A stretch of 23,629 nucleotides of DNA from a virus. Position 1 is the stretch's first letter, and every line of letters begins with the position of its first letter. Below the pieces are notes generated by a model. It searched no databases. It saw only the letters and a list, made by a program, of their open reading frames with translations, and was not told the origin of the DNA. A program made the translations under genes and the position numbers. Where the stretch lies: positions 1 through 23,629 of the IMG/VR virus record IMGVR_UViG_3300031539_011196; one strand, written 5' to 3'. Of this stretch, positions 1,511 through 16,855 are shown piece after piece.

Positions 1511-2353
1511 CTATACCTCAAGCACATAACATAGCTTCTCACCACCCCACTTCTTCACATAGCCATATTCCTCTGCGAAATCCGATTCTATCATACCCAT
1601 TTTACAAGCTCTACCATAAAGAGTACGCTTGTGCATCACAAATCTATCCCCATCCACATACCAATCATCAGAAGGAACAGTATGATGCAATTCAAAATTA
1701 CTAGCTTTATAAACAGTACCATCATGACCAACAGTAGTATCGGCATAAGCAATAACTAACTTGGAATCGATCAGCTTAATAGCTCGAGAAATAAACCAGC
1801 TAGCAAAATTCTTCTTGTGATAAGATGGATGAATACAAAGCCTTGATAATTCTCTAATATCACCGTCAACCAAGCCAAATTGCCCAGCAGTATTCTGTCT
1901 TAATGGTGGACTAAAAACTATGCAAGCAATCAATTCGTCTCCGTGATAAGCGCCAAAGCATTTCCCACCCCTCCCCTTGCCAATATAATGATAAGCATCA
2001 AGAAATGATTTAATATCCCCACCAGATACTTCTCTTAATTCAACATTCTTAAAATCAAAATCTTTTGTTTTAATATCAATACCTAGTTTTAATTTTAATC
2101 TATCAAGTACTCTATCCTTGGCAGAAAATTCGTGCTCCCAGATATACATGATCTCATGCTCAGGAAAATAGCGATTAATATAGGTAAACTTGGATTTATC
2201 CCTACGTTGAGCATCTTGTGATGAGTGCCAGTAATCGCCCTGACATTCAATTAATAAGTACTTGGTCATGCTGTTCTGTTTTGATACCAGACAGTCAAAT
2301 GCATAATAGCCAATAGCTGTGTCGGGGCTCTCCTCAACATAATCAACACCCAA
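1511..2353 (-). pseudogene. C-terminal half of IS-split nuclease-Mom fusion gene
   Basis: This 280-codon frame lacks its own ribosome binding site and begins at a TTG lying inside the 4-bp target duplication of the IS element. It continues the gene interrupted at 4213. It contains the Vsr-like PD-(D/E)XK nuclease core (AFDCL, then LIECQGDYWH, then DKSKF) followed by a Mom-like GNAT domain (HYIGKGRGGKCFGAY; LSRLCIHPSYHKKNFASWF; YADTTVGHDGTVYKASNF). By eye it is roughly 80% identical to residues 495-762 of the intact relative at 5442-7730, and long stretches are also near-identical as DNA. Removal of the IS plus one CTTG copy gives Asp-Asp-Leu-Gly-Val-Asp in frame, predicting an ancestral protein of about 493 residues. 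Whether the fragment is still expressed from within the IS is unknown. Confidence 0.85.
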
Positions 2354-2538
2354 GCGGCCTGTTGATTTGATGCAGTGATATTACGATGCTTTTCGACGTT
2401 TGGCGGTTTGCGAAACGTCGTGGACGACAAAACTGAGATGCAGAACCCGACACAACTCAGTTTCGTGACTGATCCGCGATCCATGGAGGTCCACGCGACA
2501 AGCGTTCGCGACTGCGCATTCTTCTCTCCTTTCCAGTC

Positions 2539-3546
2539 TTACCCACTCGCTGCCATTTCCGCAAACTCGGCGCGCAGTTTCCCTATCTCGCGACTCAATT
2601 TCATCACATTGAACGCCGTCGCGGCCCACAGCCATTCCGTTTTCACCTTCTCTAATCCACGCAACAAAAACTGACGGAAACCCATCACCGACTTCAGAAT
2701 CCCAAACGTCGTCTCGGCGATCCGAGGCCGTTGGTTGTAAAGCTGCCGAGACGATTCGCTCGCCATCCGCGCCGCCGTCCGTTCCCGCACCTCTTCGTAT
2801 TGGTCGCGGGTGATCGTGCGGCCACGCTTGTTCTTCGGCGACAGACAGGCCGTGGCCAGCGGACAGCCCGCACAGGCACCGCAGCGGTAAATCCGTTTCT
2901 GAATCACCTCGCCACCACGCTTCTCCGGCTTGGTCGTTTCAAACGGCATCGCATGACCTTGCGGACAATAGTATTGGTCCTCCGATTCGTGATACACAAA
3001 ACACGACTTATCCAGTCGGCCCTGGTCGTTCCGCGGCAGGTCCGGCCACTGCGATTCCGCTACCGCCTCACGCGGGTCGCCGCGCAAGGCGGGGTTGCCC
3101 GCTTGCGGCTGATTCGACTCGACTGGGGCGTAAAACTCCACCCCGCGCTCTTCCATGCCGACCATGATCTGGCCGCTGTTGTTACCGGCGTCGGTCAAAA
3201 ACCGCTCCGGCCGCCGGCCGAACGTTTCTTCGATCCGGTCCACGCTCGGCAACGCCGCCGAACCCTCGTTGACTTCCGCCAGCACGTCGCAATCCAGAAT
3301 GAAACCCCGCTCGCCGTCGGTCGTGGCAACCGGGGTGTAGTTGGGAGCGTAGCCGCCTTCTTTGTTGGGCATCACGCGGGAATCCGGGTCGCTGGTGGGG
3401 ACCTGCGCCGGGTTCTTTTCCGGGTTGACGCCTTGCTGTCGGCGGGCTTCGTCGGCGGCACGGGCCTGATCGAGGGCCGCTCGGACAAGCTGCCGCCGCT
3501 GCTCGACCTCGGCCAGTTCGTCCGGTAAGTGGGTCGAGCTACCCAT
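2539..3546 (-). pseudogene. IS1182-type transposase, C-terminal frame
   Basis: Continuation of the transposase in the -1 frame relative to 3372-4118. It carries the second catalytic Asp (FLTDAGNNSGQ) and the catalytic Glu region (RPRIAETTFGILKSVMGF), with the Cys-containing insertion CGACAGCPLATACL before it. The first in-frame ATG is at 3546, but similarity continues upstream of it: EPLDEADADG in this frame joins naturally to DELFEQLL of the other frame, so the crossover lies near 3570-3585. The C-terminus (WLWAATAFNVMKLSREI) is typical of the family. Together the two frames would give a transposase of about 520 residues. Confidence 0.85.
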
Positions 3547-4118
3547 GCCATCCGCGTCGGCTTCGTCGAGCGGCTCAGCAGTTGCTCGAACAATTCGTCC
3601 AGGGCCTGCAGTTTCTCTTGCAAGGTTTTGGCGGTGCGGGTTTGATACCGGCTGTTGTTGGCTTTGACGCGCGTGCCGTCAAAGGCGACTTCGCCGAGCC
3701 GGATCAAACCGAGCGTCATGGCGATGCACCCGATTTGCCGGAACAGGTCTTTGAGAGGCTGGCGAAACCGGGTACGGAACTTATTGAAGGTGGTGTGATC
3801 GATGTGCCGCCCTTGGACGAGCCAGATGAAATCGAAGCGATAATTGCACGCTTCTTCGAGTTTTCGGCTGCTGCGGATGCCCCGGTACATGCCATAGAGG
3901 ATGGCTGCGGCGATGCGTTTGGGCTGGATCGGCGGCTGCCCTTTACGTCTCGGATAATCGTCTTCCCACGGCGACCAATCGACCGCATCCAGGACTTCGT
4001 CGATCAAGCGGACGGGATCGTCGGGCGAAATCAGCGAATCGAGGGTGGGAAAATAGACCGAGAACAAGCTACTGCCGCGATCGAACGTCGCGTCGGCCCA
4101 ATAATCCTCAGTCGCCAT
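3372..4118 (-). pseudogene. IS1182-type transposase, N-terminal frame
   Basis: This frame starts at ATG 4118 with a good ribosome binding site (AAGGAG, 7 bases upstream). It encodes the N-terminal transposase domain (DDPVRLIDEVLDAVDW, HIDHTTFNKFRTRFR) typical of IS1182-family enzymes and the first catalytic Asp in VAFDGTRVKANNSR. After about residue 178 (near FEQLLSRS) the sequence stops resembling a transposase and becomes Arg/Ser/Pro-rich up to the stop. The homologous continuation lies in the -1 frame (2539-3546). The remaining catalytic Asp and Glu are in that second frame. No canonical slippery heptamer was seen at the crossover, so an indel mutation or an assembly error is more likely than programmed frameshifting. 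Confidence 0.85.
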
Positions 4119-4182
4119 GGCGCAACTCCTTCCTTGCCATCGGAGCCAACGAATGTCTTACTCACAAATTATACGCTCCCGA

Positions 4183-4854
4183 TCAACGGGCGTCGTCTAA
4201 ATCAACAGGCCGCAAGTCATCTAAGTATTTATATAATTGCCGCTGTATGGAACTCACCGTCCCCAACTGAGTGGCCCATACTTTAGCCATTTTCTGTCGA
4301 TATTCTGGATTCATCCATTTGCGTCTTGCTGATTCGTGTTGTTTCTTACGATAGTCAGTACGTTTCCAATTTCGTTTAGATTGTGCTGACTGCCTCTCTA
4401 AATATTGCTCGGTTTTCACAAACTCACGAATCTTAGAAACCATTTGGTTTCGATATTCAGCATTATCCCAATTCTGCTTACTGGACTCCGACAATCTAGC
4501 TCTGTGCTCGTCTAGCTGACAACTAGCCAGATGCTTTTCCTTCCAATCATCAGTACTCATTATAGCGTCTAGTTTATTACGGTATTCGGGATCCTCCCAA
4601 AGTGCTTTGCTAACACAAGAACGGCACAAACACCGGTTTGCACGTATAGACCGCCATAACACTTCCTTAGACTCGCCGCACCGACAAGTAATTATGACCA
4701 CATCTGGCTTCTGTAAGACATAGTTGTCGGGGTAGCCGAACTTGATTTTGGTAGCTTCCCAATTTATCAACTTAAACTTGTGCGAGACTCTTTGACGACA
4801 CAGGCTACAACTTATGCCCCGCTTTTCAGACCCACATATCTTACATATAACCAC
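4183..4854 (-). pseudogene. N-terminal half of IS-split nuclease-Mom fusion gene
   Basis: This frame carries the N-terminus of the interrupted gene. The genuine coding part runs from about GTG 4854 (or TTG 4869; no good ribosome binding site decides) to base 4213; the last nine residues are read from the IS end. Paired cysteines (CKICG, CSLC, then CRCG and CRSC) suggest two small zinc-binding modules. They are followed by five or six copies of a W-x-x-(P/A)-E-Y-R-x-K/Q unit (ALWEDPEYRNK, QNWDNAEYRNQ, RKWMNPEYRQK), far fewer than in the intact relative. It ends with SSIQRQLYKYLDDL, which matches SSIQLQLYKYLDDL just before the nuclease domain of 5442-7730. The N-terminal halves of the two relatives are much less alike than the C-terminal halves. 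Confidence 0.85.
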
Positions 4855-4868
4855 AATATTATAATACA

Positions 4869-4900
4869 AAATCAGCCATACTAGATAGTATGGCTGATTT
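4869..4900 (-). terminator. Perfect 14-bp hairpin, probable terminator of the 4960-5367 gene
   Basis: AAATCAGCCATACT (4869-4882) pairs perfectly with AGTATGGCTGATTT (4887-4900) around a 4-base loop. Read on the minus strand the stem is followed by a T-rich stretch (TTTTGTATT), as in an intrinsic terminator. It lies about 60 bases after the stop of the minus-strand gene at 4960-5367 and immediately before the split nuclease-Mom gene, so it would separate their transcripts. A TATAAT sequence follows on the minus strand and could serve the downstream gene, but no convincing -35 element was found. Confidence 0.75.
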
Positions 4901-4959: not shown

Positions 4960-5367
4960 TTACATGTTCGCAACTTGAGTGTCGTCGCGAAGATCACTGT
5001 GCAGATCACGTGCGGCCAGACTAGCTGCAGCATGGTGGAGGAATTTGTCTCTACCAATCTGGAAGCCGAAGTCTACGCCGGTAATCCCCTCTTGGGCATC
5101 AGAGAAAGCCTTCTGCGGCAGAAGCCCGATGACGATCGGGAATCCACGAGTAGCGTCATGACGCGCCTCACCCATGTAGGTCGAGAAGTCTTGCAGGGTC
5201 GTGTCCCTGGTCAATACGCCAGACAGGATTTCCTCACCGGGAACGCTCATCACCAGCGGGCGAAGATGCTTAGTCAGAGCCTCTACGCTCTCGTGCCGAT
5301 GATCTTGTCGGAAAGCCCGAACCCTGCGAAAGACATTGATTAAAGTGTTGGCGGGTTGTGATGCCAT
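4960..5367 (-). CDS. Unknown protein, 135 aa
   Basis: A 135-residue minus-strand ORF. I chose ATG 5367 (MASQPANTLINVFRRVRAF) over an upstream in-frame start because AAAGGAGA lies 5 bases before it. The N-terminal part is basic and probably helical; the middle (LMSVPGEE-like segment, then FPIVIGLLP) is more hydrophobic; there is no signal peptide. I recognise no family. It sits between the two relatives of the nuclease-Mom gene, transcribed on the same strand as the split copy and divergently from the intact copy, with only 74 bases between its start and that of the plus-strand gene. It may be an original phage gene flanked by two invading elements, or their partner; the sequence does not decide. 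Confidence 0.7.
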   Translation of the reverse strand: MASQPANTLINVFRRVRAFRQDHRHESVEALTKHLRPLVMSVPGEEILSGVLTRDTTLQDFSTYMGEARHDATRGFPIVIGLLPQKAFSDAQEGITGVDFGFQIGRDKFLHHAAASLAARDLHSDLRDDTQVANM

Positions 5368-5441
5368 TGTGATCTCCTTTGAACGTATTTTAATGAAGAC
5401 AGGCTTCAAAATTCAACACATTATTTTTGCTTGAGACAACA

Positions 5442-7730
5442 ATGAATAAATGGGATTTTATTGATTGGGAAGAAACCCAGCGAAGATTCAATTATGCCTC
5501 TCAGAAGTTAAAAGCCGCGGATCGCGTGCTGGTGCGGTGTTATCAATGCAATATATTCGTTGAAGTTAGATATGATTCGGTGCGAGGCAGAGGAGGAAAG
5601 CTATATAAACCAGTCTGCAAAAGCTGTAGTGTCAAAAAACAATGGGAGAATCAAGAATACAAACAAAATATTGCCGCTAAAGCAAGTTTGAGCATGCAAA
5701 AAGTATGGAATAATGAAGAATATGTCCGCAACCAGCAAGAAAAACACAAAATTGCGGGAAAATTGAAATGGCAGGATGATGAATATAGAGCCAAAGTAAA
5801 AAGCGGGGTTAGGAGAGCCCATGCTAATAATCCAGAATATACCAAATCTGCCGTAGCTGCTTTAAGAACAGAAAAAGCGATGGCCGCCCAAAAGAAAGCA
5901 TCGCAACAAAAACGAAAATGTAAAGACTATCGGCGCAAATTATCTGAAGCATCTAAGAATAATTGGAATAATCCAAAATATAGAAAAAGAATGCTGTCTA
6001 TACTAAAATCTGAAGAATTTAGACAAAAACAAATAGATACCCACAGTACACCAGAATACAAAGAAAAAGCTGCTGCTATTATGCGATCTCTCTGGGAGCA
6101 GCCAGAATACAGAGAAAAAATGATTACCACTATACAGGCCATGTGGAATCAACCGGAATTTAGAAGCCGGATGACTAAGATGCTCAGCGACAGCTCAAAA
6201 CACCTATGGGAAAATGAAGAATATAGAAAAAAACACAGAAAACAATTAATCATTGCCATGCGAACACTATGGAATCAACCAAAATTTAGAAATCGGATGA
6301 CTAAGATAATCAGCAATAATTCAAAACGCCTGTGGGAAAATGAAGAATATCGAGAAAACCAAATAGATACCCACAGCACACCGGAATATAAAGAAAAAGC
6401 TGCTGCTATTATGCGATCTCTCTGGGAGCAGCCAGAATACAGAGAAAAAATGATAACTATTTGGAATCAACCAGAATATAAAGAGCGAATGAGTAAGATA
6501 TTTAGCGATAGCACAAAACACCTATGGGAAAATGAAGAATATCGAGAACAAATAACCACTGCTATGAAAGCATTGTGGGACCAACCAGAATACAAGGAGC
6601 GGATGAGTAAGATACTCAGCAACAGCACAAAACGCCTATGGGAAAATGAAGAATACCGAGAAAAAATGGTTGCTACTATACAAGCATTGTGGGATCAACC
6701 AGAATTTAGAAATCGGATGGGTAAAATACTCAGCGATAGCTCAAAACACCTATGGGAAAATGAAGAATACCGAGAAAAAATGATTGCTATTCATAATACA
6801 CCAGAATACAAAAAGCGAATGGCTATTGTCCGAGCCAATATGCCCAGAATAAGCTCAATCCAATTACAATTGTATAAATACCTTGACGATCTCGATGTGG
6901 AATATTGTAAAGAAGGAACCGAGACAGCTATTGGATATTATGCCTTTGATTGTCTAATTCCCAAGCAAAACAAGATGCATAGACATTTGCTCATTGAGTG
7001 TCAGGGCGATTACTGGCATTCGCTCCCAAAGGCAATTAGAAACGATAAATCCAAGTTTACATATATTAATCGTTATTTTCCAGAGCATGAGATAATATAT
7101 GTCTGGGAGCACGAATTCTATGCTAAGGATAGGGTGCTTGATAGATTAAAATTAAAACTAGGTATTGATATTAAAACAAAAGATTTTGATTTTAAGAATA
7201 TTGAATTAAGAGAAGTATCGAGCGGAGATATTAAATCATTCCTTGATGCTTACCATTATATTGGTAAGGGGAGGGGTGGGAAATGCTTCGGCGCTTATTA
7301 TAGGGGTGAGTTAATTGCTTGTATGGTTTTTAGTCCACCATTAAGACAGAATACTGCTGGGCAGTTCGATTTGGTTGATGGTGGTGTTAGGGAATTGTCT
7401 AGATTATGCATTCATCCTTCTTATCATAAGAAGAATTTTGCTAGTTGGTTTATATCCAAAGCAGTTAAAAATATTAAAGAATTAGTTGTTGCTTATGCTG
7501 ATACTACTGTTGGGCACACTGGGACAATCTACAAAGCATCCAACTTCAAATTGCATCATACTGTCGCTCCTGATTATTGGTATGTAGACATAGATGGGTT
7601 TGTGATGCACAAGAAAACACTCTACCAACGAGCTAAGACCATGAGTATGAAAGAGTCAGATTTCGCAAAGGAGTATGGGTATCACAAAAAGTGGGGTGGT
7701 AAAAAATTCTGTTTTATCTACGCTAAATAA
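5442..7730 (+). CDS. Zinc/repeat DNA-binding + Vsr-like nuclease + Mom-like acyltransferase fusion
   Basis: A 762-residue protein from ATG 5442 (MNKWDFIDWEE); the TTG 15 bases earlier is less likely, and the ribosome binding site is weak (GAGA). Order: paired cysteines C33/C36 and C59/C62 (zinc-binding); about 22 copies of a W-x-x-(P/E)-E-Y-R-x-K-M unit over residues 66-465, resembling repeat modules of phage homing endonucleases; a Vsr-like PD-(D/E)XK core at about 470-570 with D503 (FDCL), E519/Q521 (IECQGDYWH) and DKSKF; and a C-terminal GNAT domain (about 590-762) with HYIGKGRGG (H605) and YADTTVGHTGTIYKASNF (Y685-), a signature of Mu Mom-type DNA acyltransferases, which modify adenine. 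Inference: a DNA-targeting nuclease joined to a DNA-modifying enzyme, perhaps a homing element. No activity is proven. Confidence 0.8.
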   Translation: MNKWDFIDWEETQRRFNYASQKLKAADRVLVRCYQCNIFVEVRYDSVRGRGGKLYKPVCKSCSVKKQWENQEYKQNIAAKASLSMQKVWNNEEYVRNQQEKHKIAGKLKWQDDEYRAKVKSGVRRAHANNPEYTKSAVAALRTEKAMAAQKKASQQKRKCKDYRRKLSEASKNNWNNPKYRKRMLSILKSEEFRQKQIDTHSTPEYKEKAAAIMRSLWEQPEYREKMITTIQAMWNQPEFRSRMTKMLSDSSKHLWENEEYRKKHRKQLIIAMRTLWNQPKFRNRMTKIISNNSKRLWENEEYRENQIDTHSTPEYKEKAAAIMRSLWEQPEYREKMITIWNQPEYKERMSKIFSDSTKHLWENEEYREQITTAMKALWDQPEYKERMSKILSNSTKRLWENEEYREKMVATIQALWDQPEFRNRMGKILSDSSKHLWENEEYREKMIAIHNTPEYKKRMAIVRANMPRISSIQLQLYKYLDDLDVEYCKEGTETAIGYYAFDCLIPKQNKMHRHLLIECQGDYWHSLPKAIRNDKSKFTYINRYFPEHEIIYVWEHEFYAKDRVLDRLKLKLGIDIKTKDFDFKNIELREVSSGDIKSFLDAYHYIGKGRGGKCFGAYYRGELIACMVFSPPLRQNTAGQFDLVDGGVRELSRLCIHPSYHKKNFASWFISKAVKNIKELVVAYADTTVGHTGTIYKASNFKLHHTVAPDYWYVDIDGFVMHKKTLYQRAKTMSMKESDFAKEYGYHKKWGGKKFCFIYAK
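6031..6454 (+). repeat. Internal 330-bp-spaced direct repeat within the repeat array
   Basis: The 94 bases at 6031-6124 recur at 6361-6454 with three differences by eye. The spacing is exactly 330 bases, i.e. 110 codons, so the reading frame is kept. The repeated stretch encodes QIDTHSTPEYKEKAAA and the following unit. This shows that the W-x-x-P-E-Y-R array grew by in-frame duplication of several units at once, recently enough that the DNA is still nearly identical. Confidence 0.9.
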
Positions 7731-7733
7731 TTA

Positions 7734-8177
7734 TTATACTTGACCATCACACCATTCTTTGATAGCGCCAAGTAAATTATCCTTAATTTCGGCCTGACTC
7801 AAAGCCATATCTTGCATGATAGGACCGACAACCTCCAAAGCTTTACCATAAAAACCGGTATGCCCGGTGTGATGGGACTGCTTGGTATTTGTCGGTTTGG
7901 CCGGACTCCCACAGGCCATATCAATAAACTCAAGAACACACTTTATCAGCTTGTGTGGCATCTCGTCTCTGGGACGAGACTGAGTACCAACATAAAGATG
8001 ATCAACACCAAGAGACTCAGCAACCGGTATATTATTCACAAGCCGACAGAGTATCATATCTCCACCACAAGTTGGTTGAATAGTCAACCCGATCTTGTTG
8101 AACTCCTCCTCTAGGGAATATAGAGTACCGAAATCGAAACACCTTTCCCGGATGAATTGTTTCAACTCGACTGACAT
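7734..8177 (-). CDS. Unknown protein, 147 aa
   Basis: I place the start at ATG 8177 (MSVELKQFIRERCFDFG), which has AGAGG 6-7 bases upstream, rather than at the in-frame start 48 bases earlier. The protein is soluble-looking and mixed alpha/beta by composition, with several Cys and His residues (PTCGGDMILC, and SHHTGHTGFYG near residue 110) but no clear metal-binding spacing. I recognise no family. The stop is only three bases from the stop of the convergent nuclease-Mom gene. The ribosome binding site forms one arm of a perfect 9-bp inverted repeat (8185-8218), so translation may be controlled by RNA structure. Confidence 0.7.
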   Translation of the reverse strand: MSVELKQFIRERCFDFGTLYSLEEEFNKIGLTIQPTCGGDMILCRLVNNIPVAESLGVDHLYVGTQSRPRDEMPHKLIKCVLEFIDMACGSPAKPTNTKQSHHTGHTGFYGKALEVVGPIMQDMALSQAEIKDNLLGAIKEWCDGQV

Positions 8178-8184
8178 AAGACTA

Positions 8185-8218
8185 CCTCTATAAGTATCTT
8201 TACCCGGTATTATAGAGG
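8185..8218 (-). promoter_or_regulatory. Inverted repeat covering a ribosome binding site
   Basis: On the minus strand CCTCTATAA (8218-8210) is followed after 16 bases by TTATAGAGG (8193-8185). The second arm contains the AGAGG ribosome binding site of the 7734-8177 gene, and the ATG follows 7 bases after the arm. If the stem forms in the mRNA, it would hide the site and reduce translation. Alternatively it is an operator for a dimeric repressor. No T-run follows, so it is not a terminator. Confidence 0.5.
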
Positions 8219-8294
8219 AGCACATGACCAGACCAAATGTTCTTGTCAGAGCTTAACAGCTTGTACGCCGACCTGGCCTACGAGAGTGGCAGCC

Positions 8295-8597
8295 TCAGGT
8301 CGACGGCTTGTCTTTTCGAGCTAATGGAGCAGGTGGTTGATCCCCCAATGAAACACCAGCGCAACAAACTACCGGTTCTAAAGTCCTGGGATTAGCCGGA
8401 AGTAATTGCAAGGCTGTGACAGCCTCCGTGAACCAATGCTTCACGATAGTGCGATCATTAACCAGAACATAACAATGGTCATCGATTACAATGTGCGATA
8501 CACCGCCATATTCATCCTTAAGTGTAGCAACCGGTGTGCAGATACTCCCGTTCATCAACTCTACTGATTCATCGGGTTTAGGTTGCCGTTGGTACAT
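8295..8597 (-). CDS. Small unknown protein, 100 aa
   Basis: A 100-residue ORF whose ATG (8597) overlaps the end of gmd by 20 bases; AAAGGA lies 6 bases before the start. The sequence ([26 protein letters not shown]) looks like a small beta-rich domain, followed by a proline-rich tail ([20 protein letters not shown]). No family is recognised. The overlap with gmd points to translational coupling, making it the last gene of the sugar operon as seen here. About 117 bases downstream, before the next gene start at 8177, hold only the inverted repeat described separately. Confidence 0.6.
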
Positions 8598-9588
8598 CGT
8601 CGGTTCCTTTCTTTGATTCTGACTCGTAGTCTGCTTGAACCATCATCCTAACCAAATCAATGAAATCGTGCTCAGGCTTCCATCCAAGTACTTCCTTGGC
8701 TTTAGTGGCATCTCCGCAAAGAGCATCCACCTCTGCTGGCCGCAGATACCGCTCATCAAAGCATACATGATCCTGACTTTTAAGGCCAACCGCCTTAAAT
8801 GCCTTTTCGACAAAATCCCGTACTGAATGGGTTTCACCGGTGGCAATAACATAATCATCTGGCTTGTCGTGTTGTAGCATGCCCCAAATAGCTTTTACAT
8901 AATCTCCTGAATAGCCCCAATCGCGCTTGGCATCAAGATTGCCGAGATACAGCTTATCCTGCCTACCTAGCGCAATCCTAGCCACGGCCTTGGTAATCTT
9001 ACGGGTAACGAAAGTCTCGCCACGACGCGGACTTTCGTTATTAAACATTATCCCATTACAAGCAAATAAACCATATGCTTCCCGATAAAACACAGTAGCA
9101 TGATAACCTGCAACCTTGGCAATTGCATATGGGCTACGTGGATGAAATGTGGTTTTCTCATTCTGTGGCGGCGGTGAAGATCCGAACATTTCGCTTGAAC
9201 TTGATTGATAAAACTTAACAGGCTTGCTCATTCGCCGGATTGCCTCTAGTATCCTAAAGACACCAGTACCAACCACATCGAAGGTATACTCTGGGATATC
9301 AAATGAGACACGGACTTGGCTCTGGGCTGCCAATCCATACACTTCATCCGGCTGTACCTTGCCCAAAATATTATTGAGACTATCACTATCTGACATATCG
9401 CCAAAATGAAGAAATAATTTGACGTCCGGATCATGGGGGTCCTGATAAAGATGATCTATACGATCTGTGTTAAAGGTAGAACACCGCCTAACGATACCGT
9501 GAACAACATACCCCTTGTCAAGCAATAATTCAGTTAGGTAACTCCCTACTTGTCCCGTTATTCCTGTGATTAATGCTACTTTGCTCAT
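8578..9588 (-). CDS. gmd: GDP-mannose 4,6-dehydratase
   Basis: This enzyme converts GDP-D-mannose to GDP-4-keto-6-deoxy-D-mannose, the entry to GDP-fucose, GDP-rhamnose and perosamine sugars. The protein (336 residues from ATG 9588; the GTG 6 bases earlier is part of the GAGGTG ribosome binding site) is a short-chain dehydratase. It shows the NADP-binding [11 protein letters not shown] loop at the N-terminus, the family-typical HGIVRR, the active-site region [11 protein letters not shown], the YAIAK (Tyr-x-x-x-Lys) pair, the [17 protein letters not shown] segment and RPAEVDAL near the C-terminus. Length and motifs are those of a complete, active enzyme. It overlaps the upstream gene by 59 bases and the downstream small gene by 20. 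No GDP-fucose synthase is in the window, so the final sugar depends on genes elsewhere or on the host. Confidence 0.96.
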
Positions 9589-10576
9589 GTCCACCTCGTG
9601 CTCTTGTAATAAAGAGTTTCACCTGAGCGCGCAGCGACCAGCCAGTTCTATAATCCTGCATCGACTGTTTCGCCAAGCATTCCCATGTCGCCCGGTCATA
9701 TATACTATCGAGGTCAGACCATTGGTCTACAAACAAACAATTATGCCTATCCTCTAGTAGTGGATAATAAGTAGACGGCCAATGCTGGCAAATAAGAGTT
9801 CTCCCCAGCATGGCTGCCTCAGTAAAGCGCAAACTCTTGTCGCCATTCCCCCTCATATCAATACAACCGCGGTAATGCATCATCCACCGGATAAATTCAC
9901 GCGATGGGGTACCCCGTTCCCACTGGAACTCGGCCCACTCCGGAAACTGATCTATTGTCTCGATTCTGGTATGGGATGGTGCTTTGTTACCCATGAAACC
10001 AGCAATGCCGGTTTCTTCTTCCCGAAACACTTCAATCAACTCATCCAACTCATCGCGGAGATAGTGATGATACACTCCCTCGCGCATAAATAACTCATAC
10101 ATTCTTGGATCAATGGGATGCGAGGTAGGGATCACCTTATCACCATGAGTCTTAAGAAGCTGCGGGGTATGGTTCACCGGCATATAAAGATCGGCCCGAT
10201 CTTGCACCGGATGCCCGCGGTGGCTCCTAAATGGCTTCGAACTCTCCCTGAAACATCGATCTGAGTTGCAGAAACAGACCTTGAACCCGGGTAATCGTGA
10301 TACTTCTGCCCAGTTATCATCGCGATAGAAAGCATCGGCTTTGGCAACATAAATCTCAATATCGTTCGGAATCATCGCACGTCCAGAGGCAATGCGCGGT
10401 GTCCAAAGTCGCCTAGCTCGCTTCATAAACGAATGCTGCTCGAGATGTTCCTGGCTAACTATGCATACTACTTCCTCACCAAGGTCCTCAGCAATCAAGG
10501 CCATGTGAAGAAGCTGATAAGAGCATCGTTTAAGCCGGTATGGCTTCGTAAGGCGAGAGAAATCGAATACTATCAT
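9530..10576 (-). CDS. Glycosyltransferase-like protein, 348 aa
   Basis: The start ATG 10576 overlaps the stop of the sulfatase-like gene as ATGA, a sign of translational coupling. The N-terminal half ([20 protein letters not shown], ending [11 protein letters not shown]) looks like a Rossmann-type domain. The C-terminal half has the element [20 protein letters not shown] at about residues 255-275, which resembles the donor-binding part of GT-B or exostosin-like glycosyltransferases, followed by [20 protein letters not shown], the usual C-terminal region in those families. No DXD-type motif needs to be present in GT-B enzymes. Its place directly before gmd supports a role in transferring a GDP-linked sugar. 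Specific donor and acceptor are unknown. Confidence 0.65.
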
Positions 10577-11403
10577 TTAAAACCACAGACCTTCAAGTTC
10601 TCTTCAGTTATCGGATAAGACCGGCCATGTGGCATAAATACCGTCCAACCAAGCGGAACCGCCATAACATTGGGATGTGCAAAACCATGGCCATAACAAT
10701 TATCCTCACCCATACAATCACCATGATCTGCACAAAAGCAAACTACAGTCCGCAACTTACTAGACCCAAGCCAATTAAATAATCTGCCCAGCAATTCATC
10801 AGTATATTCCAGACATTTAATCTGCTTATTCCTAAGTTTTTTATTAAATGTCGAACGATAGTTATTACCAGATCGGGGACTTCTTATATTCGCCAAATCT
10901 GAAGACATGCCCGGAACTCGATAGGGACGATGTGTGGTGCCAAAATTGAGCAAACCGTAGAAGGGCTCCCTATCAAGACGACGGATAAACTCCGCCACTG
11001 CTACGACCCCATCAGACTCATAGACAAAATCCTCAAAACCGAGTCCCATGGGTGTACGCTGTTTGAACCACCCAACACCACCCGCTGCAACAGTCCGATA
11101 ACCCCTATTGCGCAATACTTTGGGAATTGACCCATTACCACACAATTCACTTAAACACGGCCGCCGAGACTTATAGAACCACCGGTATACAGACTTCTCG
11201 AACCGGTTATAGATCGGCCGATCTCCAGCAGTAGTGGGGAAGAAGCCTTGAAACATCGCCGCATGAGCCGGATACGTAAATGTAGCCATCGCACCAGCTT
11301 CGACAACTTCAAAGTGTGCATCAATATTCTTCGTTACTGCTAATTGAAAAGTATCCCAACGACAGCTATCAACCACTATTGTTAGAAAATTGAAAGCTAT
11401 CAT
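10573..11403 (-). CDS. Alkaline phosphatase/sulfatase superfamily protein, 276 aa
   Basis: Metal-dependent hydrolase of phosphate or sulfate esters by fold. Seen: an N-terminal strand with a metal-binding Asp (FLTIVVDSCRWDTF), a likely Thr nucleophile in ATFTYPAHAAMFQGFFP (like the TFPNH element of phosphodiesterases rather than the Cys-x-Pro-x-Arg of true sulfatases), and the metal-binding cluster VVCFCADHGDCMGE followed by YGHGFAH. The core motifs are present, although 276 residues is short for the family and the usual C-terminal subdomain is missing. It is located between two glycosyltransferase-like genes, with GGATGGA before the ATG, so it probably acts on the same glycan. Before the TnpB element inserted, its start lay only about 11 bases after the upstream gene's stop. 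Confidence 0.75.
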   Translation of the reverse strand: MIAFNFLTIVVDSCRWDTFQLAVTKNIDAHFEVVEAGAMATFTYPAHAAMFQGFFPTTAGDRPIYNRFEKSVYRWFYKSRRPCLSELCGNGSIPKVLRNRGYRTVAAGGVGWFKQRTPMGLGFEDFVYESDGVVAVAEFIRRLDREPFYGLLNFGTTHRPYRVPGMSSDLANIRSPRSGNNYRSTFNKKLRNKQIKCLEYTDELLGRLFNWLGSSKLRTVVCFCADHGDCMGEDNCYGHGFAHPNVMAVPLGWTVFMPHGRSYPITEENLKVCGFK

Positions 11404-11452: not shown

Positions 11453-12604
11453 ATGCAAATATATAAGGCCGTAAAACTCCGAGCACATCCTAGTAGAACG
11501 CAAACAGCACTGCTGAATAACCATTTTGGATGTGCTAGATTCATCTATAATTATTTCCTTGCTTACAAGACACAACAATATAAACTCACAGGAAAATCTA
11601 CCAGCTTCTTACAGATGAGTAGGGAACTTACAAAGCTTAAAAGGGCCGAAGAGTACTCTTGGCTTGCCAATGTCAGCAGACAATCATTGGGTCATTCTCT
11701 GGCTAATCTAGACAAAGCCTTCAATAGTTTCTTCAGGAAACAAGCTGATTATCCAAAATTCAAATCTAAGAATCACAGCAAACAATCGTTTATTATTGGC
11801 TTTCCATTTTGCCGGGTGAAAGCTGCCGGCATCCATTTACCACTTATTGGAACTATCAAATGTGATGTATCTTTGCTGCCAGATGACCACAAATTACTCT
11901 CGGCTACAGTTTCAAAGAGTGCCAGCGGCAAAATCTTTATATCATTGAATATTCAAACAGATATACTCGATCCTATTACTGATATTTCAAAACCAGTAAT
12001 TGGTATTGATTTTGGAATTAAGACATTTATCACTACCTCAGACGGTGATAAGTATGATCACCCGAAACCATTTAGAAAGTATCAACTCAAGCTAGTCAGA
12101 CAGCAACGAATCTTGGCCCGGAGAAAGAATGGTAGCAAAAGAAGAACAAAGCAAAAACACAGGGTGGCAACTGTTTATGAGAAGATCTCTAACATTAGGA
12201 AAGATTTTCTGCATAAGTTGAGTAGGAAGCTCGTCGGCGAAAACCAAGCCATTTATGTAGAAGATCTAAACTTAGAGCAGATGAAGAAGAGGTTCGGAAC
12301 ATCTATCAACGATCTTGGCTGGGCCGAATTCCTTAGGCAGTTGAGCTATAAGGGACAGTGGTATGGCTGCGAGATAGAGAAGATTGATAGATTCTTTCCC
12401 TCCAGTAAAACATGTTCTAAATGCGGGTGGGTTAAACAGGATTTGTCTCTGAGGGATAGAGTATGGGAGTGTCCTGTTTGTCTGACTGAGCATGATCGGG
12501 ATGTTAATGCTGCCAGAAATGTTTTGGAATACGGTCGGGTCGGCCGAAATTCACGCACAGGGAGAGCGCCTTGCTCTGTGAACTGTGAAGCTCAATGTGA
12601 GTAG
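11453..12604 (+). CDS. tnpB: TnpB, RNA-guided endonuclease of IS200/IS605 type
   Basis: TnpB proteins are RNA-guided DNA nucleases related to Cas12; they help the element persist by cutting empty sites. The 383-residue protein starts MQIYKAVKLRAHPSRTQ, typical for the family, with helical N-terminal part up to about residue 110. The RuvC residues are all visible: Asp in VIGIDFGIKTFITTSDG, Glu in AIYVEDLNLEQMKKRF, Asp in HDRDVNAARNVLEYG. A zinc ribbon (CSKCG ... CPVC) lies between the second and third. Length is normal, and no stop or frameshift is seen, so it is probably functional. A TATAAT-like sequence just upstream (AAATATAATAC) could be its promoter. It opposes the surrounding minus-strand operon. 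Confidence 0.95.
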   Translation: MQIYKAVKLRAHPSRTQTALLNNHFGCARFIYNYFLAYKTQQYKLTGKSTSFLQMSRELTKLKRAEEYSWLANVSRQSLGHSLANLDKAFNSFFRKQADYPKFKSKNHSKQSFIIGFPFCRVKAAGIHLPLIGTIKCDVSLLPDDHKLLSATVSKSASGKIFISLNIQTDILDPITDISKPVIGIDFGIKTFITTSDGDKYDHPKPFRKYQLKLVRQQRILARRKNGSKRRTKQKHRVATVYEKISNIRKDFLHKLSRKLVGENQAIYVEDLNLEQMKKRFGTSINDLGWAEFLRQLSYKGQWYGCEIEKIDRFFPSSKTCSKCGWVKQDLSLRDRVWECPVCLTEHDRDVNAARNVLEYGRVGRNSRTGRAPCSVNCEAQCE

Positions 12605-13646: not shown

Positions 13647-14289
13647 ATGTCTATGCCATTGTTATCTTATATACCTGCCCAGCCTGTGAAAACGGATAGA
13701 AAATTGAATCTATTATTTATCATGACCGATCAGCAGACGTGCCAGTCACCATTGGGTGACTAAGCTAATGCTTTATGAAGAATCGGTTACCGTACCAATG
13801 ATTATCTGTTGGAAAGACGTTATACAAGCAGACGTTGTGGACAAAACTCATTTGGTTTCTGGGCTTGATATATTCCCCACAGTGTGCGATTATGCGGATT
13901 TAGAGGTACCAAAAGACATACGAGGAATCAGTCTGCGACCATTGATTGAGAATCCTCACCTAAATGGTCGCGATTTCCTCGTAGCCGAACTTCAGGCTTT
14001 TAAGAATCAGCCCGAACGGGCGGGACGTATGGTGCGTAGTCAGCGGTATAAATATATTGTTTTTTCTTATGGCGAAAATCCCGAGATGCTTTTTGATCTT
14101 GAGGCTGACCCCGGCGAAACCCAGAATTTAGTCCATTACTCAACAATGCAGAGTGAATTAATTCGTCATCGCCATTTGCTAAATAAATGGATTATAGAGA
14201 CAAAAGATGATTTTAAAAAATGCTGTTCGTCCCCGGAACAGCACTACAATCAAGAACGGGAAAAGCATGATCCACAAAGTACGCCATAA
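13647..14289 (+). pseudogene. Sulfatase remnant with large internal deletion
   Basis: A short frame at 13647-13763 encodes the N-terminus of a typical sulfatase (KLNLLFIMTDQQ). A second frame, one base off, from about 13740 to 14289, encodes the C-terminal part: KLMLYEESVTVPMII, GLDIFPTVCDYADL, GISLRPLIEN, RMVRSQRYKYIVFSYG and MLFDLEADPGETQNLV are all standard sulfatase C-terminal elements. Everything between, including the Cys/Ser-x-Pro-x-Arg active site and the second metal site, is missing, a loss of roughly 250-300 residues judged from family length. The fusion point lies near 13735-13755. The gene cannot make an active enzyme. It runs opposite to its neighbours, which suggests separate acquisition. 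It is distinct from the 10573-11403 protein. Confidence 0.88.
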
Positions 14290-14401: not shown

Positions 14402-16855
14402 TTACTGCCTCGCTAAAGCTTGACTTACAAATTTGGCGTATGATGTATTCTTCAAATACTTGTGCTGCTTCAAGATTTGATCCTCAACACTAAACCCGGC
14501 AAGTTGCTTCTCAAACACCTTATTCGCATCATGATATTTCATCCACCCACTGGTGCGTATGTGCCACAAATGAACAAGATCTATAATCCTGTTTTCATGC
14601 CAACGACTACCCTTAGATAGGCGGAAATAGAAATTGCAATCTTCGCAATTGTGGACCGCTAAACCATTAACAACATATGAATGGTCGCCAGACACCTCGA
14701 AATTATAAACCATCCCAGTATGCTGATTTGAATCAATTTTGGTGACGGTGCCGAATTTAGACCGATTGTGTGATCTATCTGACCTAGTCACCAACTCGAT
14801 ATCATATGGTGGTAATAATTCGGACATGAAATCTGTATCCAATAACTCATCGCCCTCCTTGATATTATTGGCTATTTTCCATACAAACTCTTCACCATCA
14901 CGCACTAGAAATGGATGTTCTGGCGTCACTCCCTTAATTCCTAATCTCCCAGCAACAAAAATATTCAGTATCTCTCCTTTGTAAAAACGCTTTCTCGTTG
15001 TGGCTGGACGAAATCGCCCTTCGTGTGTGTAGAGATATTCTCCATCAACCACATCTGCGATGTCTTTATAACCATTGGCAGTAAGAACATAATTATCTTG
15101 TGCAAAACAGCCATAGCCCCAATAGTCCTCAACGAATCCACCAACTTTCCAGAAAGTATCAGTAAGACAGGCAATACTCCCTCCTTCGAAATAGGTGACA
15201 ATCTTTTCGGCAGTAACGGTCTTATCTACCCGATTGTGTGTATTGATACTGTCTGTCGACGTCTTATCCGCGTAAATTACCCTAGCCCCGAGATGACAAG
15301 AGTCAGCACGATCTAAAGTATCAAAGACCAATTGTGTGTAATGAGCTGGCACCAGGGTATCGGCATCATGAAGCAGCAATTTATCATGGCTAGCACGGGA
15401 AACACCTGCATTAAAAGCCATGCTTTTGTTAAATGGTTTTCCGGGTGTAGCCACAAGCAAATGAGTTAAGCAGCACAACTCATCTGGTTTGAAACAACTT
15501 TGATCATCTTGCTCGGCGGCAATCATCTCGATACAAGGAAATCGCTGAGCCCTGATATTATTTATTGCAGTCATAATAGATTGGTGCCGTCCAATATCCT
15601 TGAACGGGATTATACACGATATCGACGGAACTTTCGACTTGCCAGACGCCGCAATCTTAACAGGCCGATCACCCATAGCGGTGTATTTTGATCGAGCAAT
15701 CTGTAGATGTTTTATGCGGTCCGGGACAGCCGAACGATCGGAATGGATTCTGAAATACTTGGTTGCCCCGTCAACGTCCCAGTAACCCGGTGGCTGCAGT
15801 TTAGCAGCGGCTACTCTTGTCGACCAATCAACATGCTCCATACCGTAATAACCAAAAGCCTCATTGAAATATCCAACTTTGGCAAACGCCCGATCATCCA
15901 AAGCCATCACAGCCCCATGTGGGCGAACGTCAACCCGGATGAGTAGCTTATCCCTCATTGGCTGTTTGACACCTTCAGACGCACCATAAACGCCCGGCTG
16001 GTTCAAACAGAAATGGTGCAGCCCTGTATTGTACATTGTATTAAAGTAGAAATGTTCCCATCCTTTCGCTAAGACCTCAACATCATCATTGAGGAGCAAC
16101 TTACTCGGAAAACGCTGTAAGCAACGCAATAGGCGGTTAGAATTCCCAGCGATCCCCAAGCGAGTCCTATTTCTGAGAATGACAAAGTTGTTCGTCTTCT
16201 CGAGCTTGGTAAAATAGCGATGCAACTCAACATCGGTACTACCATCGTCGCTTATGAAAACAGTAGTCTTCTGTAAATCGGTCGTCCCAACAATAGAGTT
16301 CACCAGTCGCCGAAGCGATTTCGGACGATTAAATGATAATATTCCAACCCCGACACCATTGCTGATCGGGTAGAACATTGTGGATAATGTTTTGTGCAAT
16401 GCCTCTGTGGCACCTCGCTTGAATCCCCTGCCAACTATCTGAGCTTGGAGGCGCTGCCTAGCCCGACTTTCATTAATTTGCCTAGCCCGACTTTTGTTGA
16501 TCCGATGCAAAGTATGTTTAGTTTTCGACGAGACGATACGGTTAGAAGCTGGCTGCTTTTCAGCGTTTTTGGCTTGAGTTAATGCAGAGGCAGCACCCTG
16601 CTCGGCCATAACCAGTGACCTCTTCTTAGCAATTCCAAGTGCCTGGCTGCGTGAAGGATGGTATTTCTTCGGCTGAACAGTTTCCGTCACGGTTGGCCGT
16701 TGAGACGTGCGCAGATGCTTCAGAAACCCTCGTTTGACATAACGGTCAAAGAATGATGGAAGACATATGCTTTTCCCGCGACGTATGATAACCTTCTTAC
16801 CATCAGGACCAACAAGATGTAGATCATAGTCGTGGGAATTTACATAGTCGGGCAC
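14402..16855 (-). CDS. Two-domain family 2-type glycosyltransferase interrupted by a mini-intein
   Basis: An 817-residue precursor starting at GTG 16855 (GGAG 8 bases before; overlaps the upstream gene by 16 bases). Residues 1-50 form a small domain (LHLVGPDGKKVIIRRG), then a basic linker to about 160. Residues 168-400 are a first GT-A domain (GVGILSFNRPKSLRRLV, FISDDGSTD, LLNDDVEV, GYYGMEHVDWSTR). Residues 409-582 plus the part after the intein form a second GT-A domain (SISCIIPFKDIGRHQS, NAGVSRASHDKLLLHDADT). Residues 583-736 are an intein; splicing would rejoin WGYG to CEDCNFYFRLSKG, the ED motif expected to hold the catalytic base, giving a 663-residue enzyme. The likely role is assembly of a glycan with two linkages; donor and acceptor are unknown. 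A duplicated KSRARQ / ESRARQ sits at about 121-134. Confidence 0.9.
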   Translation of the reverse strand: MPDYVNSHDYDLHLVGPDGKKVIIRRGKSICLPSFFDRYVKRGFLKHLRTSQRPTVTETVQPKKYHPSRSQALGIAKKRSLVMAEQGAASALTQAKNAEKQPASNRIVSSKTKHTLHRINKSRARQINESRARQRLQAQIVGRGFKRGATEALHKTLSTMFYPISNGVGVGILSFNRPKSLRRLVNSIVGTTDLQKTTVFISDDGSTDVELHRYFTKLEKTNNFVILRNRTRLGIAGNSNRLLRCLQRFPSKLLLNDDVEVLAKGWEHFYFNTMYNTGLHHFCLNQPGVYGASEGVKQPMRDKLLIRVDVRPHGAVMALDDRAFAKVGYFNEAFGYYGMEHVDWSTRVAAAKLQPPGYWDVDGATKYFRIHSDRSAVPDRIKHLQIARSKYTAMGDRPVKIAASGKSKVPSISCIIPFKDIGRHQSIMTAINNIRAQRFPCIEMIAAEQDDQSCFKPDELCCLTHLLVATPGKPFNKSMAFNAGVSRASHDKLLLHDADTLVPAHYTQLVFDTLDRADSCHLGARVIYADKTSTDSINTHNRVDKTVTAEKIVTYFEGGSIACLTDTFWKVGGFVEDYWGYGCFAQDNYVLTANGYKDIADVVDGEYLYTHEGRFRPATTRKRFYKGEILNIFVAGRLGIKGVTPEHPFLVRDGEEFVWKIANNIKEGDELLDTDFMSELLPPYDIELVTRSDRSHNRSKFGTVTKIDSNQHTGMVYNFEVSGDHSYVVNGLAVHNCEDCNFYFRLSKGSRWHENRIIDLVHLWHIRTSGWMKYHDANKVFEKQLAGFSVEDQILKQHKYLKNTSYAKFVSQALARQ
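14648..15109 (-). other. Mini-intein, 154 aa, inserted in the glycosyltransferase ED motif
   Basis: The segment shows the Hint-fold splicing blocks. Block A is CFAQDNYVLTANGYKDIADV, starting with Cys1. Block B is KGVTPEHPFLV with the conserved Thr and His. Block F is MVYNFEVSGDHSYVVNG. Block G is LAVHN with penultimate His and final Asn, followed by Cys as the first C-extein residue. These match a class 1 intein with Cys1/Cys+1 chemistry. At 154 residues it has no room for a homing endonuclease; the linker between blocks B and F (about residues 85-130) is short and hydrophilic. All key splicing residues are present, so it is predicted to be active. Removing it restores a continuous GT motif. 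Confidence 0.93.

Follow-up and report, generated by a model that had tools for sequence, protein, structure and literature searches.

A probable free-standing homing endonuclease of the Hef superfamily with a fused Mom-type domain in a T4-related phage

Mom of phage Mu is a bulk genome modifier and a stand-alone protein without a nuclease. Proteins that join a Mom domain to a restriction-endonuclease fold were described in jumbo phages by Iyer et al. 2021, who predicted that these Mom-REase fusions act in restriction-modification and gave PA5oct as the example of a phage with multiple momylating enzymes, five in number; the term homing endonuclease is absent from that paper (PMC7824862). Hef-like homing endonucleases are free-standing genes, several per genome, that adjoin head and tail genes. 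The kind also includes Hef of phage U5, and our comparison covers Hef-like proteins of Campylobacter phages, LIMEstone1 and PA5oct and Hef-type proteins from IMG/VR; for LIMEstone1, a published table lists four Hef-like homing endonuclease genes. Proteins of phrog_559 occur in terL introns of Bastillevirinae and contain a VSR domain, the only domain named in their InterPro annotation (PMC11878797).

The DNA analysed here (the window) is a 23,629-nucleotide stretch of the IMG/VR virus record IMGVR_UViG_3300031539_011196 and contains two copies, A and B, of a gene related to all of these systems. Copy B (5442..7730, + strand), identified as a free-standing homing endonuclease gene from its ORF, Pfam and PHROG matches and homologues, runs from an ATG at 5442 to a stop at 7730 and encodes 762 amino acids; a TTG at 5427 lengthens the frame by five codons. 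From N- to C-terminus, the protein consists of a four-Cys motif, a W-x-x-PEYR-like array, a Vsr/EDxHD-type nuclease and a Mom domain. A preliminary description, made from the sequence alone, had proposed the fusion of repeat array, Vsr-like nuclease and Mom-like domain in one polypeptide, and the ORF, profile searches and fold searches all bear this out. Its further remark, that it knew of no described system with this exact layout, did not survive comparison with the Mom-REase fusions (PMC7824862), with the Hef-like proteins of Campylobacter, Dickeya and Pseudomonas phages, or with phrog_559, a single family whose one profile spans the array, nuclease and Mom region (residues 168-756 of the window protein on 36-590/607 of the profile). 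Since only VSR was named in the annotation of phrog_559, the Bastillevirinae paper seems not to have remarked on its Mom part. Within a protein kind already known, the subfamily that has both the array and a complete Mom signature stands out as a distinct variant; it forms its own group, with support of 94/95, on an unrooted Mom-domain tree that does not distinguish a single from a double origin of the fusion. In a full-length AlphaFold (AF2) model (mean pLDDT 78.7), the array is helical and the nuclease and Mom domains are well predicted, while the pTM of 0.40 means that the arrangement of the domains relative to one another is not reliable.

The N-terminal part begins with a probable zinc ribbon (5538..5627, + strand), recognized as CxxC...CxxC in the family consensus and written C33-x2-C36...C59-x2-C62 in the window protein, where there are exactly two C-x-x-C pairs, C33-YQ-C36 and C59-KS-C62; the region reads E28-32, E39-43, H44-50 in the AF2 model. 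The zinc array first suggested for this region is reduced to one four-Cys motif, the C-x-x-C pairs themselves being present. Next comes an array (5697..6839, + strand; from pattern counts and AF2 helices) in which short helical units of the form W-x-x-[PE]-[EK]-[YF]-[RK] occur 15-18 times. Strict W-x-x-[PE]-E-[YF]-like matches number 15, and looser patterns give 17-18, so that the repeats are real and the initial count of about 22 W-x-x-P-E-Y-R units was somewhat high; among 1000 shuffles, strict matches averaged 0.04 and never exceeded 1. Spacing between units is mostly 13, 17 or 21 residues, and their number differs among homologues. The array is modelled as alpha helices throughout, carries a net positive charge (82 K+R vs 55 D+E in 385 amino acids), and is presumed to bind DNA. 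Matches of the array to GerD and nitrile hydratase were put down to a superficial likeness among helical repeats and set aside; the GerD match, from NCBIfam, lies below its own cut-off.

The central domain (6852..7190, + strand; residues about 471-583) was assigned as an EDxHD/Vsr-like PD-(D/E)XK nuclease on the basis of conserved residues (D503, E519, Q521, W525, H526, E556, F559) and its similarity to the structure 3r3p. The proposed catalytic core D503, E519 and Q521 is correct in the numbering from the ATG at 5442 and is invariant, together with Y524, W525 and H526, in a 25-row family alignment; across 58 relatives including the Hef branch, the residues that never change are D, E, G, H and K of the nuclease plus the glutamate in its WEHEF motif. 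A profile of these 58 relatives found 3r3p, a 'mobile intron protein', as its best solved relative (2.9e-12), and the Vsr entries 1cw0/1vsr appeared lower in the same search, weakly matched. Because the best 50 Foldseek matches for the full model showed acetyltransferase folds, Mom among them, a separate model of the nuclease was made (AF2, pLDDT 93), and its top Foldseek match was 3r3p_B (prob 1.00, TM 0.69/0.78, E 3.8e-3), named there as the catalytic domain of the homing endonuclease I-Bth0305I. The middle domain is thus placed within the PD-(D/E)XK nucleases, and 'Vsr-like' is a correct label for it; with 3r3p as the best match and Vsr weak and further down, the EDxHD homing endonuclease family is, on profile and modelled fold, the nearer relative. 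I-Bth0305I has a nuclease domain homologous to that of the window protein in sequence and fold, although its solved chain is the 105-amino-acid catalytic domain only, and it is not known to carry a Mom domain. I-Bth0305I is intron-borne, unlike the free-standing window gene: there was no Rfam match at E <= 1 anywhere in the window, and so no group I intron was found, which speaks against an intron-borne homing endonuclease and separates this gene from phrog_559 proteins, which are intron-encoded in the terminase.

The C-terminal Mom domain (7200..7727, + strand; residues about 587-762) matches PF25680, the Pfam Mom family, at 6e-22 with 78.7 bits against a curated cut-off of 27.1, and phrog_1384, the Mom-like PHROG, at 5.5e-28. 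Alignment of the window-family C-terminus to nine stand-alone Moms with hhalign gave an E of 3.5e-23, and the top Foldseek match for the AF2 model was 8bv8, Mu Mom S124A. These results place the domain in the Mom family rather than in another GNAT family, in agreement with the preliminary description, and the HYIGKGRGG and YADTTVGHTGTIYKASN motifs it had noted are both present in the C-terminal segment. Mu Mom and the window domain share their fold and all signature residues, and differ in that the latter is fused to a nuclease. With Mu Mom positions given in the 231-amino-acid numbering unless stated, window residues H605, Y606, R654 and N665 correspond to H48, Y49, R101 and N111, S668 to S114 (S124 in the 241-amino-acid numbering), and D687, G694 and Y697 to D139, G146 and Y149. 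The nine stand-alone Moms share H48, Y49, R101, N111, D139, G146, Y149 and N153, as well as S114 (T in one), and the window protein keeps every position conserved among them. The 26 window-family rows are uniform at the H, Y, R, N, D, G and Y, and 25 of them have the S; at the N153 position, 18 rows show N and eight show G. A catalytic role for these residues rests, for S124 only, on the PDB title of 8bv8, 'inactive mutant S124A', the S114 position reading alanine in that chain; we found no papers testing Mom active-site mutants in the literature searched.

Between the two window copies, dN/dS is 0.14 for the nuclease and 0.13 for the Mom domain, a comparison of sequences indicating that both domains are under purifying selection. 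The intact signature and this constraint (dN/dS 0.13) favour a working enzyme, and on balance we lean towards a catalytically active Mom domain that modifies DNA adenine at N6.

The window-family profile also found its way to established Hef-like genes. It matched four places in LIMEstone1, the same number as the published Hef-like genes, one of which was confirmed as F-LimIII; 10 places in Campylobacter phage CP30A; nine in one 341-kb phage; and four in PA5oct, where the two proteins that we looked at are annotated as Hef-like and adjoin the tail sheath and major head genes. The Hef-like proteins of Campylobacter phages, LIMEstone1 and PA5oct have the same order of an N-terminal part, a Vsr-like nuclease and a Mom-type domain, and differ from the window family in their N-terminus, which is not the W-x-x-PEYR array, and in having E-x-N in place of E-x-Q in the nuclease. 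Comparison of Hef and window-family profiles by hhalign gave an E of 5.4e-22 for the C-terminal part and 6.9e-8 for the nuclease, and the Hef C-terminal profile aligned to stand-alone Mom at 3.6e-13. On the unrooted Mom-domain tree three groups separate, with Hef apart from the window family.

In an alignment of 50 Hef-type rows (47 from IMG/VR, two from CP30A and one from LIMEstone1), every row has D, E and H in the nuclease and H48, R101, D139 and Y149 in Mom, and 48 rows have S114, whereas the nuclease Q is replaced by N, Y49 by I/L/V, N111 by G and N153 mostly by G. The changes at Y49, N111 and mostly N153 mean that the domain may do something else in the Hef branch. They also bear on whether the Mom domain of such a homing endonuclease has lost its chemistry and is kept as a DNA-binding or positioning module, a reading with a real though minority claim. 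Phage homing endonucleases are built of tethered DNA-binding modules (PMC3943268), and nuclease relatives with no recognizable Mom domain exist (L042, L043, L045, L047-L049), so that not all genes of this type depend on marking. A pure binding module, however, should not need the four Mom residues found in all 50 Hef rows, the window family has the still fuller conservation given above, and the Mom part has nearly the same dN/dS as the nuclease.

Whatever the chemistry, the genomic behaviour of the family is that of a mobile element. IMG/VR members adjoin genes for gp21 (prohead protease), gp23 (major head), tail sheath or portal, and searching for homologues and their insertion sites recovered the same fusion in phage relatives, with occupied and empty sites. 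The gap between the gp21-like and gp22-like genes is 35-45 bp in L032, L033 and L038, the empty form, and 2.1-5.6 kb including the homing gene in L013, L015, L016, L019 and L027, with the flanking protein ends conserved on both sides; L027 has copies at two such sites. Broken or partial copies occur in this window, L020, G004 and G007, and the interrupted copy of L020 has an open counterpart in the near-identical relative L018. Records differ at the site of the Hef pair by the Campylobacter tail sheath. In Campylobacter phage F336 (MT863715.1, 109567-114903), some features of the Hef-pair region bear the annotation adenine-specific DNA methyltransferase. Nearly all relatives found were viral, a profile search of genome contigs giving only five loci. 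Nuclease-Mom relatives (43-49% identity) on contigs binned as Lokiarchaeota MAGs (L140-L143) could be viral or mis-binned.

Such a record has to be set against one-protein restriction-modification, in which Mom would place marks broadly over the phage genome and unmarked host or competitor DNA would be destroyed by the nuclease. Two matching predicted activities in one chain and intact Mom signature positions speak for that account, under which the Mom-REase fusions were described (PMC7824862). It does not sit well with the many copies per genome seen in CP30A and the 341-kb phage, with recurrent sites beside core genes in occupied and empty forms, with copies that are sometimes broken, or with N-terminal parts that differ among relatives (array, HTH in L051, DUF7487 in L046). 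In PA5oct, that paper's own example, two of the four matches are annotated as Hef-like homing endonucleases and lie beside tail sheath and major head genes, whether or not they are among the paper's five. The pattern of an optional, site-recurrent, multi-copy gene with broken copies fits homing better, and we regard restriction-modification as quite improbable. Homing endonuclease, the class first proposed, is the right one by genomic behaviour, and we consider it very likely that the window gene, carried by a T4-related phage, encodes a mobile, free-standing homing endonuclease belonging to the Hef superfamily. Hef homing endonucleases and what had been read in jumbo phages as 'Mom-REase restriction systems' seem to be proteins of one kind, which joins two readings so far apart. 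It also raises the puzzle of why cutters of the Hef kind keep an apparently intact DNA-marking domain.

As an overall explanation, a Hef-type homing endonuclease with a Mom domain that probably works, and whose likeliest use is to mark its own target, accounts well for the locus and we hold it with good confidence. The zinc motif and helix array would bind a long DNA target; the Vsr/EDxHD-type domain, whose residues and fold are in place, would cut phage DNA that is without the gene; and recombinational repair would copy the gene in, as the occupied and empty sites in relatives suggest. The Mom domain, keeping all stand-alone Mom residues, probably modifies DNA adenine N6, and marking of the carrier's own target would prevent cutting by the same protein. 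This self-protection is the role that we prefer for the Mom domain, tentatively, as it is the least certain step; no rule for whether cutting or marking comes first at the same site is visible in the sequence. Alternatively, Mom might act in homing itself, for example by putting marks on DNA ends or on the repaired product, or by recognizing modified DNA, and not in immunity. Its fixed fusion to the nuclease, and the DNA-binding part that the two have in common, would bring the two chemistries to a single site; Mu Mom, though, modifies its genome in bulk, and we think such a role unlikely. The protein also makes testable an old question, that of how the product of a free-standing homing gene spares the genome that carries it. 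If the Mom domain works, proteins of this design would cut and mark DNA with a single chain, in which a modular helix array serves for recognition. A more speculative extension, and a somewhat doubtful one, is that phage homing endonucleases throughout a large superfamily have their own site-directed adenine modifier, one DNA-binding arm steering both cutter and marker to the same locus. If this is true, the selfish gene both spreads and immunizes its carrier, and Hef proteins are self-protecting homing endonucleases whose Mom domain is largely unnamed in annotation.

Copy A, assigned to the same family from its ORFs and homology (1511..4869, - strand), is 79% identical to copy B over nuclease and Mom and is split by an IS1182-family element (2354..4213, - strand) with 15-bp perfect inverted ends, a possible 4-bp CAAG target duplication and a transposase in two overlapping frames. 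Between the head-to-head copies lies a conserved 149-amino-acid gene (4960..5409, - strand) with an 81% identical homologue in L051, and this gene may be a recurrent homing target. In L029/L030 (3860-7503), a homologue of the 149-amino-acid gene is also flanked head-to-head by two homing endonucleases. Beyond copy B is a GDP-mannose 4,6-dehydratase gene (8578..9594, - strand; profile match), whose counterpart in the syntenic relative L051 directly adjoins the 149-amino-acid gene with copy B absent between them. The L051 site is the sole candidate for an empty site of copy B and is not clean, two small ORFs (7734-8225 and 8295-8597) being missing there as well; no clean one was found, and a search for relatives of the 163-amino-acid neighbour at 7734-8225 returned none. 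On its far side, L051 carries another Mom-type homing endonuclease, the one with the HTH N-terminus.

Elsewhere in the window, a glycosyltransferase gene (14402-16855, - strand) has an apparent mini-intein at about residues 583-742, and its L051 homologue is a single 987-amino-acid frame with a longer insert at that place. ORFs at 10573-11403 (- strand) and 13756-14289 (+ strand) read by eye like sulfatase fragments on opposite strands. The ORF at 11453-12604 (+ strand) reads as an IS605-type TnpB-like protein and matches an ORF of L043 at 37%.
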